IMG/VR virus record: IMGVR_UViG_3300034685_000218
Location: 1 to 30,538 of that record
Origin: a virus
Length of the DNA stretch: 30,538 bases
Direction: 5' to 3' (one strand)
Part shown: positions 5,092-17,386 of the stretch, in pieces
How the letters are laid out: each line of letters starts with the position of its first letter
Numbering within the stretch: position 1 is the first letter of the stretch
Position numbers and translations under genes: made by a program
Notes under the pieces: model-generated
What the model was told of the DNA's origin: nothing
The model's database searches: none
The model's input: the letters and a program-made list of their open reading frames with translations, nothing else

Positions 5092-5862
5092 TTAGCCTTC
5101 TTTTTCCAACCTTTGCACAGCTAAATTGCAATACTCTTTACTAATCTCGATTCCTATGCATTTTCTCTGCTCTTTTCTAGCTGCAACAAGTGTCGTACCG
5201 CTCCCCGAAAATGGATCCAGTATTATATCCGTTGTGTATGCAAATAGCTTTATGCATCGTCTAGGCAGTTCTACAGGGAATGGCGCGGGATGTTTTATTT
5301 TTGTGCGTGATTCACCGCTAAATTCCCACAAGCCTATTACCCAGGATAAAAATTCTTTCTTTGTTATATCTGTACTTCCTCGCTTTTTCTTTCTCCACAC
5401 TTTCTTAAACAGGACTAATATTGTTTCAGCTGGCGATGAGATATAAGGCGTTGTTGCAGATAACCAGCTCCCCCACTTCAATCTGTTTTTTATGTGTTTT
5501 TTATTCCAAATTATAGTTGCCCGATACTTAAAGCCTATTTGCATAGCAACGTGCAAAACGTCTGAACTCAATGGCACTATCTCGTTAAGATTATTAGCTA
5601 TAATTGGTACATTTATGCATATTCTCCCATCATCCTTCAGCAAATTATATGCCTTTGTTAGCCAGTTAGCAGTAAAATTCATGTATTGCTTATAGCTAAC
5701 TTTATCGTTGTGCTGATCGTATTGAACACCGACATTATATGGTGGTGATGTAATTATTAAATCTATTTGATTAACATAGTTAGATAAATCTACTTTTAAG
5801 AAATCGTTGTTGAGTAGAACGATATTGTTTTTAGAGTAAATAACATTAGACTGTTCTAGCAT
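5092..5862 (-). CDS. DNA methyltransferase (SPPY type, beta class)
   Basis: A 256-residue protein with the catalytic motif TSPPYNVG at 38-45 near the N-terminus and the S-adenosylmethionine motif DPFSGSGTTL at about 216-225 near the C-terminus, the beta-class order. An SPPY catalytic motif is typical of N4-cytosine enzymes, though some N6-adenine enzymes share it. No restriction endonuclease gene sits beside it, so it is an orphan phage methylase, probably protecting phage DNA. AAGGAG lies 7 bases before the ATG; it overlaps the resolvase gene by 17 bases. The recognition site cannot be read. Confidence 0.93.
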   Translation of the reverse strand: MLEQSNVIYSKNNIVLLNNDFLKVDLSNYVNQIDLIITSPPYNVGVQYDQHNDKVSYKQYMNFTANWLTKAYNLLKDDGRICINVPIIANNLNEIVPLSSDVLHVAMQIGFKYRATIIWNKKHIKNRLKWGSWLSATTPYISSPAETILVLFKKVWRKKKRGSTDITKKEFLSWVIGLWEFSGESRTKIKHPAPFPVELPRRCIKLFAYTTDIILDPFSGSGTTLVAARKEQRKCIGIEISKEYCNLAVQRLEKEG

Positions 5863-13662: not shown

Positions 13663-13706
13663 TTACGCTTTCGTAAAGACTCGATTAAGAAATGTTTAAC
13701 CCAAAG

Positions 13707-13852
<146 letters not shown>

Positions 13853-13959
13853 TGTAAGAATGTTAGTATTTCACTTAAGGGAAAGAGATAAAATATGCAA
13901 AATAAAGATAAATATAGCGAGCACGGCGGTTTTGACCGGCCTACCTGCCCACAAATTTG

Positions 13960-14007
13960 CCTGTTAAGAACCTTGTTAGGAATCTTGTTAAGAACCTTGT
14001 TAATAAT
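13960..14007 (+). repeat. Four tandem 12-bp iterons
   Basis: Head-to-tail units CCTGTTAAGAAC, CTTGTTAGGAAT, CTTGTTAAGAAC and CTTGTTAATAAT with no gaps. Further CTTGTTAAG/GTTGTTAAG copies follow at 14042-14089. Evenly spaced short direct repeats beside an AT-rich block and an operon divergence are typical of an initiator-binding region. Confidence 0.8.
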
Positions 14008-14035
14008 CGCAAATCCGCTTGTAATCGGCGTTTCA

Positions 14036-14094
14036 GACACACTTGTTAAGGTTGTTAAGAAGTGTGTCGGGGATCTTGTTAAGATTCCCTCGGT
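14036..14094. repeat. Two hairpins built on the iteron word
   Basis: GACACACTT (14036-14044) / AAGTGTGTC (14060-14068) with loop GTTAAGGTTGTTAAG, then GGGGATCTT / AAGATTCCC around a GTT loop (about 14069-14093). Neither has a T tract, so they are not obvious terminators; they fit a replication or regulator region. Confidence 0.65.
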
Positions 14095-14108
14095 AAACTT
14101 ACTTAGTC

Positions 14109-14136
14109 TTGTATAACCAATTTCGTGTGATATAAT
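14109..14136 (+). promoter_or_regulatory. Main rightward (late) promoter
   Basis: TTGTAT (14109-14114), 16-base spacer ending in TGA (extended -10), TATAAT (14131-14136), 54 bases before the first gene of the ParB-to-tail operon. Confidence 0.75.
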
Positions 14137-14190: not shown

Positions 14191-14745
14191 GTGAAAGAAG
14201 GCATTTTAGTTGAGCGTAAGAAAGTTAGCGATTTGAAATACGCGCCGTACAATCCACGGACAATTTCCGAGGAAATGTTCAAAAAACTGATAAAATCGCT
14301 ACAACAGTTTGGATATGTGGAGCCGCTTGTGTGGAACAAGAGGACAGGGCATGTTGTAGGCGGAAATCAAAGACTGAAAGCATTACAAGAATTAGGCGTC
14401 GAAGAAGTTGATGTTATTGTAATAGATTTACCTTTGGAACAAGAAAAAGCTTTAAATCTTGCTTTAAACAAGATAGAAGGCGAATGGGATATTCCAAAAT
14501 TAAAGGAAATTTTAATTGAACTTTCAGAAAGTGTTATCAAAGAAGATTTGACAATTACAGGTTTCTCTATTGAAGAAATAGAAGGACTTATTGGAAAAAT
14601 TGAAGAAAATATATCTGAAGCAAATATTGAACAATCTTTAGAACAATATATTATCATTATTGAATGTGAAAATGAAGAACATCAAAAAGAATTACTTGAA
14701 CGATTTTTAGCGGAGGGGTTAAAGTGTCGTGCACAGTCATTGTAA
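14191..14745 (+). CDS. ParB/sulfiredoxin-domain protein of a DNA-modification pair
   Basis: A 184-residue protein starting at GTG with AAAGGAG 9 bases upstream. Residues 5-100 form a ParB-like domain: KVSDLKYAPYNPRTISEEMF, VEPLVWNKRTGHVVGGNQRL (GG-N-QR core) and a helical part (LEQEKALNLALNKIEGEWD). In phages, ParB-like proteins with this NPR...GGNQR pattern often sit beside DNA methylases, terminases or base-modification enzymes and can hydrolyse nucleotides. The C-terminal tail ends in the overlap with the ABC-GNAT gene (22 bases). It is more likely part of the modification module than a partition protein, since no ParA is present. Confidence 0.85.
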   Translation: MKEGILVERKKVSDLKYAPYNPRTISEEMFKKLIKSLQQFGYVEPLVWNKRTGHVVGGNQRLKALQELGVEEVDVIVIDLPLEQEKALNLALNKIEGEWDIPKLKEILIELSESVIKEDLTITGFSIEEIEGLIGKIEENISEANIEQSLEQYIIIIECENEEHQKELLERFLAEGLKCRAQSL

Positions 14746-15836
14746 AAGAATCTAACATTGTTAGAACACCTAGAGTTATTCAACTTGAAGGAATGTTTGA
14801 TCTTTCACCTTCAGAAAAATCTAAATTAACTTGGGAAGTAAGTTTACCTCTTCAAGAGCGAGAGTGGAATGTAGGACTTATTGTCGGTCCTTCAGGAAGC
14901 GGAAAAACTACAATTGCACGAGAACTATTTAAAGATTATATTATCGACCAATTTCCATGGAGCAAAGACAAAGCAATTGTTGATGAGTTTCCTAACAATA
15001 TTTCGATACATGAAATAGTTGAAATTCTAACAAGTATAGGTTTTTCTTCTCCTCCAGCGTGGCTTAGAAATTATAATGTCTTATCCAATGGAGAGCAATT
15101 TAGAGTATTTATTGCAAGAGCATTGGCAGAAAAAAGAGAAATTACAGTAATCGACGAATTTACATCTGTGGTGGATAGAACAGTTGCAAAAGCAGTATCT
15201 TATACTGTTCAAAAATATGTGCGAAAACATAATAAAAAATTTATTGCAATATCTTGTCATTACGACATATTTCAATGGCTTATACCGGATTGGATCTTTG
15301 AAGCTGGCGTAAATAATTTCCAGTGGAGTGATGGACTTCGGCAACGTCCAAACATTGCGCTTAAAATTGAGAAAGTGCATTCAAAAGCGTGGGAATTATT
15401 CAAAAATCATCACTATTTGAACAGAAATTTAAATAATTCCGCCCAGTGTTATCTCGCTTCTTGGGGCAATGAACCTGTTGCATTTTGCGCAGTATTACCA
15501 CAACCTATTTTAATATCCCAGCAAATGATTTGGCGAATTTCACGCATTGTTGTTCTTCCCGATTATCAGGGACTTGGTATTGGAATGGCGCTGTTAAATT
15601 ATGTTGCTTCGTTATATGCAACGAAAGGCAAGGTCGGAATTACAACGTCTCATATGGGGATGATTCGTGCACTAGAAAAATCACCATTGTGGAAATTAAA
15701 ACATCGAGGAATATACCGAGCTCATTCATCCCTTAGTTTGCGAAGAACAAGCTCATTTAATCGCTTAACTTGTTCTTTTTATTACATCGGCCGCCCAAAT
15801 TTTGAAGATGCAAGATGTTTTGAAATTCCTAAGTAA
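14724..15836 (+). CDS. ABC ATPase-GNAT (Mom-like) fusion, probable DNA base modification
   Basis: A 370-residue fusion; GTG start with GGAGGGG upstream. Residues 45-190 are an ABC-type ATPase: Walker A GPSGSGKTT (55-63), signature LSNGEQ (120-125), Walker B TVIDEF (141-146) and H179. Residues 212-350 are a GNAT fold: KAWELFKNHHYLNRN with H229-H230-Y231, and the acetyl-CoA-type loop RIVVLPDYQGLGIG (274-287). HHY plus this loop resembles phage Mu Mom, which alters adenine in DNA. There are no transmembrane segments, so it is not a transporter. Few GTTAG words occur between 15063 and 15729, hinting at separate ancestry. Confidence 0.82.
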   Translation: MSCTVIVKESNIVRTPRVIQLEGMFDLSPSEKSKLTWEVSLPLQEREWNVGLIVGPSGSGKTTIARELFKDYIIDQFPWSKDKAIVDEFPNNISIHEIVEILTSIGFSSPPAWLRNYNVLSNGEQFRVFIARALAEKREITVIDEFTSVVDRTVAKAVSYTVQKYVRKHNKKFIAISCHYDIFQWLIPDWIFEAGVNNFQWSDGLRQRPNIALKIEKVHSKAWELFKNHHYLNRNLNNSAQCYLASWGNEPVAFCAVLPQPILISQQMIWRISRIVVLPDYQGLGIGMALLNYVASLYATKGKVGITTSHMGMIRALEKSPLWKLKHRGIYRAHSSLSLRRTSSFNRLTCSFYYIGRPNFEDARCFEIPK

Positions 15837-15859: not shown

Positions 15860-16222
15860 ATGGCGAAGAGAGGAAGGCCAAGAAAAACAATTGACTATGA
15901 TCTTGTTTATAAATTGGCACGTATATTTTGCACACAAGAGGAAATTGCAAGTGTGTTAGATATTCATGTCAGAACGTTGCAAAAAAATCCAGAATTTCGC
16001 CGTGTGTTTGAAAAAGGCAGAGAAGAAGCAAAAATATCACTTCGCAGGATGCAGTACAAGAAAGCCATGGATGGAAATGTAACAATGTTAATTTGGCTTG
16101 GCAAGCAGTATCTTGAACAACTGGATAAACAGAAGATTACGCAGGATCTTGAAGTAGACCAAAAACAAGCACCGCAGATAAAAATAGAATTAGTCGATGC
16201 TAACACTCTTAAGCAGGAGTAA
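15860..16222 (+). CDS. terS: Terminase small subunit
   Basis: A 120-residue protein with AAAGGTGAGG before the ATG. Basic start (MAKRGRPRKTIDYD), then an HTH (IFCTQEEIASVLDIHVRTLQ), then an NPEFRRVFEKGREEAKISLR helix and AMDGNVTMLIWLGKQYL, as in small terminase subunits that bind the packaging site. Seven bases before the large subunit gene. Confidence 0.9.
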   Translation: MAKRGRPRKTIDYDLVYKLARIFCTQEEIASVLDIHVRTLQKNPEFRRVFEKGREEAKISLRRMQYKKAMDGNVTMLIWLGKQYLEQLDKQKITQDLEVDQKQAPQIKIELVDANTLKQE

Positions 16223-16228
16223 TAAACT

Positions 16229-17386
16229 GTGGGTAAGACAAGAGTGATAAACAAAATCTGGCAGTTCATAGCAACAAATTTAGACAAAGATACGATTGTT
16301 ATATATGGCGGTGCTGGCGCGGGAAAATCTTACACTGTAGCACGATATCTCATTTACAGAGCGCTTCTTGAACCGCTAAGAATCTTAGTTGTGCGTAAGG
16401 TTATGAGAAGCTTGCGCGATTCTGTGTATCCCATTATTCGTGAAGCCCTGTCTGAAATGGATGTTGAGTACCAAGATAAAATAGCCGAGTTTCGAATTTT
16501 GATTAAAGATTCTGAGATATGGCTAAGAGGTTTAGATAATCCTGAGAAACTTAAATCATCTGAATTTAACATGATATGGCTAGAAGAAGCCACGGAATGC
16601 ACAAAAGACGATTTTCTTTACCTGCAAATGAGGCTAAGACGAAAAAGTAAATCGCTTAACCAGATGTTTATTACATTCAATCCCGTTAATGTAGAATGGC
16701 TAGTAGAGTTAGTCAAAGATAAGAATGTTCCATCGTTGCGTGTTACTTACAACGACAATCCATTTTTGAATAAAGAATATTCCGAGCTGCTTGAACAACT
16801 GAAACATGAAAATGAGGAACTGTACCAAATATACACTCTTGGTGAATTTGCAACACCGCAGACAATCATATACACAAACTGGGATGTCGTGAATAACCAG
16901 CCAACAAAGTTAGATGATGTATTTTATGGACTGGATTTTGGCTTCAATAATCCAACATGTTTGCTGAAAGTAGGAATCAAGGATAATGAAATATACGTGT
17001 TAGACGAGCTTTATAGATCCCACTTAACCAACTCTGAGCTTATAGAACAGTTAAAAGAGTTAAATGTATCTAAGAATGTTCCTATCTTCGCAGATTCAGC
17101 CGAACCGGATAGAATAAAAGAAATACAGCAAGCCGGATATTGGATACAAGGCGTGAAAAAGAATGTTAAAGATGGGATAGATAAAGTTAAACGAAGAAAA
17201 ATAAATATAATTAACAGTTGCGTGAATACAATACGCGAAATAAAAAACTACTCTTGGCGCAAAAAAGGTGATACAATATTAGACGAACCAGTAAAGTTTG
17301 ACGACCACGCAATGGATGCTTTGAGATATGCAATCACCGGATATTTTGAACAATCTAAGCCAAACATATATGTGTTAGATATATAA
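16229..17386 (+). CDS. terL: Terminase large subunit (PBSX-type)
   Basis: A 385-residue protein from GTG 16229 (GGAG upstream, rather far). ATPase part: Walker A YGGAGAGKS (26-34), Walker B MIWLEEATE (115-123) and the FITFNP coupling motif. C-terminal RNase H-like nuclease: FYGLDFGFN (D236 acid), ADSAEPDRI and FDDHAMDALRYA (late acid pair). It drives DNA into the head and cuts the concatemer. Standard length for the family. Overlaps the downstream frame by one base. Confidence 0.97.
   Translation: MGKTRVINKIWQFIATNLDKDTIVIYGGAGAGKSYTVARYLIYRALLEPLRILVVRKVMRSLRDSVYPIIREALSEMDVEYQDKIAEFRILIKDSEIWLRGLDNPEKLKSSEFNMIWLEEATECTKDDFLYLQMRLRRKSKSLNQMFITFNPVNVEWLVELVKDKNVPSLRVTYNDNPFLNKEYSELLEQLKHENEELYQIYTLGEFATPQTIIYTNWDVVNNQPTKLDDVFYGLDFGFNNPTCLLKVGIKDNEIYVLDELYRSHLTNSELIEQLKELNVSKNVPIFADSAEPDRIKEIQQAGYWIQGVKKNVKDGIDKVKRRKINIINSCVNTIREIKNYSWRKKGDTILDEPVKFDDHAMDALRYAITGYFEQSKPNIYVLDI

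Follow-up and report, generated by a model that had tools for sequence, protein, structure and literature searches.

The overlapping ParB-like and ABC ATPase-GNAT genes described here are likely to form a phage DNA-modification module. Our preferred reading is an ATP-driven acyl modification of the phage DNA before packaging, comparable with the action of TmcA on tRNA, and we give it a probability of about 60%. ParB-like proteins accompany DNA-modifying enzymes, and this association is the main support for DNA as the substrate; DNA modification, already proposed in the preliminary description, is the likeliest role. The invariant motifs of the fusion, a published protein family, the linkage to ParB and to the terminase large subunit (TerL), the ParB relatives found with methyltransferases, Mom and DpdB, and a structural match with TmcA all favour such a role. 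Counted against it are a GNAT domain that lies nearest to canonical GNATs, a marginal profile likeness to Mom and gaps in the genomic context.

The gene pair and the fusion protein

The window, i.e. the whole stretch of DNA analysed, is the IMG/VR virus record IMGVR_UViG_3300034685_000218 with a length of 30,538 bases. A ParB/Srx-fold protein of 184 aa is encoded at 14191..14745 (+ strand, GTG start) and the ABC ATPase-GNAT acyltransferase fusion of 370 aa at 14724..15836 (+ strand, GTG start). Both reading frames have exactly the coordinates given in the preliminary description, and the overlap noted there amounts to 22 nt. Shine-Dalgarno-like sequences precede both starts, AAAGGAG before 14191 and GGAGGGG before 14724. 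As had also been proposed, the pair leads a rightward gene block ahead of the terminase: it is followed by the terminase small subunit TerS (15860..16222, + strand; phrog_309, 5.5e-13), by TerL (16229..17386, + strand; Pfam Terminase_3, 1.3e-40) and by a portal gene from 17386 (Pfam and PHROGs annotation of the window). TerL is most similar (45%) to that of Thermoanaerobacterium phage THSA-485A, a hint that the host may be a thermophilic Firmicute. The leftward block contains a separate N6/N4 DNA methyltransferase gene (5092-5862, − strand; Pfam 3e-48), and there may thus be two kinds of DNA modification in one phage. Between the divergent blocks, at 13710-13850, lies a long potential hairpin in which GAAA/TTTC microsatellite arms flank an AT-rich centre; the fold z-score of the region that holds it (13700-14130) is −6.8. 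A CTTGTTAAGAA-like repeat occurs seven times at positions 13960-14086, immediately 5' of the ParB-like gene, in several cases with a spacing of 12 nt. This repeat was not found upstream of ParB in 115 relatives and was dropped as a ParB-binding array or a part of the module; it is perhaps an origin or a regulator array of this particular phage.

According to Pfam, PHROGs and two AlphaFold2 models alike, the fusion consists of an ABC ATPase (residues 1 to ~205) and a GNAT domain (residues ~208-356; 15345..15791, + strand). Pfam matches to both halves (ABC_tran, 1e-9; Acetyltransf_1, 3.3e-8) are above the curated cut-offs, and the models have mean pLDDT values of 93.8 (full fusion) and 91.1 (GNAT domain modelled alone). 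PADLOC gave only weak ATPase matches on the fusion.

Conservation was assessed in an alignment of 91 sequences, in which the others are 36-51% identical to the window protein. The ABC half has all key motifs of an ABC ATPase and a fold match with Z ~15. Specifically, the Walker A motif GPSGSGKT (residues 55-62; 14886..14909) has invariant G55, S57, G58, G60 and K61, the ABC signature LSNGEQ (120-125; 15081..15098) has invariant S121 and G123, and in Walker B, ITVIDE (140-145; 15141..15158), D144 and the catalytic Glu145 are both invariant. The same holds for S148 and R152 of the D-loop SVVDR (148-152; 15165..15179) and for Cys178-His179 of the H-loop (15255..15260). In the GNAT half, H230 and Y231 of the HHY motif (229-231; 15408..15416) are invariant, and so are R274 and W323; in the CoA pyrophosphate loop QGLGIG (282-287; 15567..15584) Q282 and G283 are invariant while G285 and G287 are kept in at least 90%. 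All these motifs are on the + strand. A single chain joining a full ABC ATPase to a GNAT domain with HHY and a cofactor loop had been claimed, and every one of these elements is there. Since the key catalytic residues are kept in all 91 aligned sequences, both halves are probably active enzymes.

The family itself is already known. The fusion matches phrog_11143, a phrog with no assigned function, over residues 8-358 (1.6e-108) and is a full-length member of it. It is 40.8% identical, over 82% of its length, to QAX98348.1 of Aeromonas phage AsFcp_2, the exemplar of the 'GNAT coupled with an ABC ATPase' for which DNA-base acylation was predicted (Iyer et al. 2021, PMC7824862); that paper credits the prediction to Iyer et al. 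NAR 2013. Both the fusion and the predicted DNA-base acylation are therefore published, and the window protein is a further member of the family, homologous over most of its length and with the same ABC and GNAT layout. Unlike the published system, the window has an overlapping ParB-like gene beside the terminase, and the text of Iyer et al. 2021 makes no mention of ParB. Our literature search found no experimental test of the ABC-GNAT family. The name COG2401 for such a fusion was found in no paper. Tenacibaculum phage pT24 is named as a carrier by Iyer et al. 2021 and was also matched here; its homolog (L010, 3696) is interrupted by an in-frame stop within the GNAT portion, and the annotation splits it into two genes.

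Relatives are widespread. Among INPHARED phages, 74 records contain them, with 32-43% identity among the matches listed, and the carriers include phages of Gordonia, Rhizobium, Aeromonas, Porphyromonas, Streptococcus, Leptospira, Lactococcus and others. Scans gave 580 or more matching stretches in viral contigs and 441 in genomes, redundant loci included. The best 80 genome matches are mostly from planctomycetes and Nonomuraea; where downstream sequence is available, the majority have a terminase nearby and are probably prophages.

Relation of the GNAT domain to Mom and to other acyltransferases

It had been suggested that the GNAT domain resembles Mom of phage Mu. It does belong to the GNAT superfamily, with the fold and the Q-x-x-G-x-G/A CoA loop, and the invariant H230-Y231 pair is situated between the first strand and the CoA motif. 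Profile alignment places HHY of the ABC-GNAT family on the His-Tyr of Mom. Furthermore, ParB-like genes are found beside true Mom genes. These features link it to Mom, but identity with Mom is not supported. Pfam Mom (PF25680) does not match the window fusion at E up to 0.1, and a distant relative from Leptospira phage LE4 reaches E 0.059 and 13.5 bits against a cut-off of 27.1. Comparison of the ABC-GNAT family with 13 Mom proteins by hhalign was marginal (P 0.003, probability 10%). Conversely, when Mom was compared with the rest of Pfam no other family, canonical GNAT families included, matched at E up to 10. In view of the missed Pfam Mom match and the strong matches to canonical GNATs, the sequence comparisons do not place the window fusion in the Mom family, and the weak profile likeness is taken as a lead. 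The fusion and Mom (PF25680, 8bv8) have in common the GNAT superfamily, the His-Tyr pair in register and late phage genes, and some Mom phages have a ParB-like neighbour gene as well. Mom has no ATPase, whereas the window protein has an ABC ATPase and a GNAT domain with a classical QxxGxG CoA loop. Aeromonas phage PX29 encodes both Mom and an ABC-GNAT protein, suggesting that the two probably do different jobs and are probably not interchangeable.

Structure searches with the full model are dominated by ABC ATPases, and the GNAT domain was therefore modelled and searched separately. Its top match is 1y9k (Z 13.4, rmsd 3.3, 133 aligned residues), and further top matches, among them Naa50 and RimI, are likewise canonical protein or small-molecule GNATs. 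In sequence and fold the domain stands nearest to canonical GNATs, the outcome that the preliminary description had named as speaking against its proposal. The Mom structure 8bv8 is not among the 50 GNAT-domain matches listed, which are canonical GNATs; its absence there is not read as pointing to a different fold.

Such matches could mean that the enzyme acetylates a phage or host protein, e.g. a terminase subunit, RNA polymerase or a DNA-bound host factor, and that the ABC and ParB parts bring it to DNA. Besides the fold, terminase being the most constant downstream neighbour would suit a protein target, and a phage GNAT that acetylates host RNA polymerase, Rac, is known (cited in PMC7824862). 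Generic GNAT fold similarity says little about the substrate, however, protein acetyltransferases would not normally be expected to contain an ABC ATPase, and ParB proteins of the partner's type are found fused to DNA methyltransferases and next to Mom. We consider a protein target unlikely.

Foldseek searches with the full and with the GNAT-only model both list, at ranks 17 and 18, TmcA (tRNA(Met) cytidine acetyltransferase, 2zpa). Like the fusion it combines a P-loop ATPase and a GNAT domain in one chain, and its target is a base amino group. Unlike the ABC-type ATPase of the window protein, the ATPase of TmcA is of the helicase type, and its substrate is tRNA; the fusion is not a TmcA, and the likeness is limited to a working analogy. 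Since TmcA works on tRNA, an acyltransferase acting on RNA or free nucleotides instead of duplex DNA might be considered. Given the different ATPase, and given that the ParB partner and the late position of the genes indicate DNA, such a substrate appears very improbable.

The ParB-like partner and the genomic context

The assignment of the upstream gene to ParB-like proteins was confirmed by Pfam: ParB_N (PF02195, 1e-7) is above the curated cut-off and is the only family to reach it. In comparison with partition ParB, the 184-aa protein has the ParB_N domain and, at the Pfam cut-offs, no central HTH domain. In PHROGs it matches phrog_620 (1.5e-43) and the ParB-methyltransferase phrog_498 (4e-41), and in PADLOC it matches a ParB-methyltransferase model. 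The nearest relatives found are the ParB parts of ParB-adenine-methyltransferase fusions, to which its ParB domain is 42-44% identical. As in these phrog_498 fusions, and as in the case of DpdB, a ParB-like ATPase in deazaguanine insertion into DNA (PMC12839542) that is found beside DpdA, the partner would be a DNA-modifying enzyme. What differs is that the window ParB is encoded apart from its partner and carries an additional small C-terminal module (IVECxxEExQxxLLERFxxEGLxCRA, common to most partners of ABC-GNAT), and that an acyltransferase is its partner. ParB-like genes also overlap or closely precede the true Mom genes of Microbacterium phage Antuna and Arthrobacter phage LeeroyJ (Pfam Mom 1e-46 and 2e-60, respectively). 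In Mycobacterium phage GodPhather (L226, 1694-3858) a DAM-like and a phage GNAT-like domain form a single fusion protein, and the ParB-like gene that follows overlaps its gene; this would be another pair of ParB and a putative DNA-modifying acyltransferase.

Context counts come from the best-scoring, partly redundant relatives and are biased as frequencies. Of the 153 relatives whose upstream sequence is long enough, 134 have a ParB-like homolog as the immediately preceding gene (viral loci, 70 of 78; genome loci, 64 of 75), with an overlap of most often ~20 nt. TerL is found downstream on the same strand within 4 kb in 101 of the 129 relatives that have at least 3 kb of downstream sequence (56/65 viral, 45/64 genome). 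The context is not universal: ParB or the terminase linkage is missing in AsFcp_2, pT24 and the loci L006-L008, and the ABC-GNAT gene of T4-like and jumbo relatives is situated away from the terminase. The paper on Leptospira phages LE3 and LE4, which carry the pair, contains neither 'restriction' nor 'methyl' in its text; this silence neither supports nor excludes modified DNA there.

The tight linkage to terminase across unrelated phages could also be explained by a site-specific DNA mark that steers packaging or late transcription, instead of a bulk protection against restriction. Dam methylation at pac of phage P1 is a precedent for packaging control, and in two other phages, phiFL3A and Javan630, ParB-adenine-methyltransferase fusions are similarly placed 0.8-1.6 kb upstream of terminase genes. 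The T4-like and jumbo relatives argue against such a mark, for which there is moreover no known recognition sequence, and we regard it as rather improbable.

A candidate frameshift and the proposed mechanism

In six phages, Lactococcus P335, Streptococcus phages MismyG, Javan141, Javan420 and Javan523 and an Oenococcus phage, ABC and GNAT are encoded in different frames (−1). The set comprises the loci L013 (P335, 5470-5760), L012, L212, L222, L223 and L224. Specifically, the ABC reading frame stops early, at 225-226 aa, and GNAT goes on in the −1 frame. In all six there is no start codon (ATG, GTG or TTG) between the last stop of the −1 frame and the HYL motif, and in spite of this that interval codes for the conserved Trp, Phe and His-Tyr. 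Lactococcus and Streptococcus phages have a common site, CAG GTT TTT C[AG]A T(T/A)(T/C) CCC CAC, and the candidate frameshift site sequences are CAGGTTTTTC and, for the P335 ABC-GNAT, CAGGTTTTTCAATTTCCCCAC. The heptamer is non-canonical, and in Javan420 the frame is broken once more within GNAT. The frame split fits a programmed −1 frameshift joining ABC and GNAT, for which these sites are candidates.

If acyl modification of DNA is the function, as we prefer, the module may work as follows. The GNAT domain would bind acyl-CoA and move the acyl group onto the amino group of a DNA base, with the His-Tyr pair and Arg274 located in the active site or close to it. The ABC domain is envisaged as an ATP-dependent dimer, in which binding and hydrolysis would be coupled to holding or distorting DNA in such a way that a base reaches the GNAT site. 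This role is modelled on the ATPase module of TmcA acting with tRNA cytidine, and by that analogy we infer that ATP may drive base access in the window fusion. The ParB-like protein would be an NTP-dependent subunit for DNA loading or targeting, a role that ParB relatives probably also have in fusions with adenine methyltransferases and, in the case of DpdB, beside DpdA. Placed in front of the packaging and head genes, the module would be expressed in such a way that the DNA is marked before packaging, probably against restriction.

Taken further, the system may be an ATP-powered DNA base acyltransferase that represents a new class of modification and is present in hundreds of phages, the ABC dimer and the ParB-like NTPase loading or opening DNA for a canonical GNAT as in a TmcA that works on DNA, and the −1 frameshift in phages of lactic acid bacteria yielding free ABC and ABC-GNAT from one message. 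We put this combined proposal forward tentatively, as a possibility that has somewhat less than even odds.

One type of ParB occurs both with methyltransferase fusions and with Mom, and it may be a partner of phage DNA-modifying enzymes in general. Isolated carriers of the system that grow on laboratory hosts exist, namely Lactococcus P335 and phages of Gordonia (Jace) and Leptospira biflexa (LE4); Pseudoalteromonas SL25 is another isolated carrier. If the DNA of these phages is acylated, it would contain a new DNA base, reached by an ATP-coupled route, which could find application in countering restriction, in sequencing or in epigenetic chemistry.
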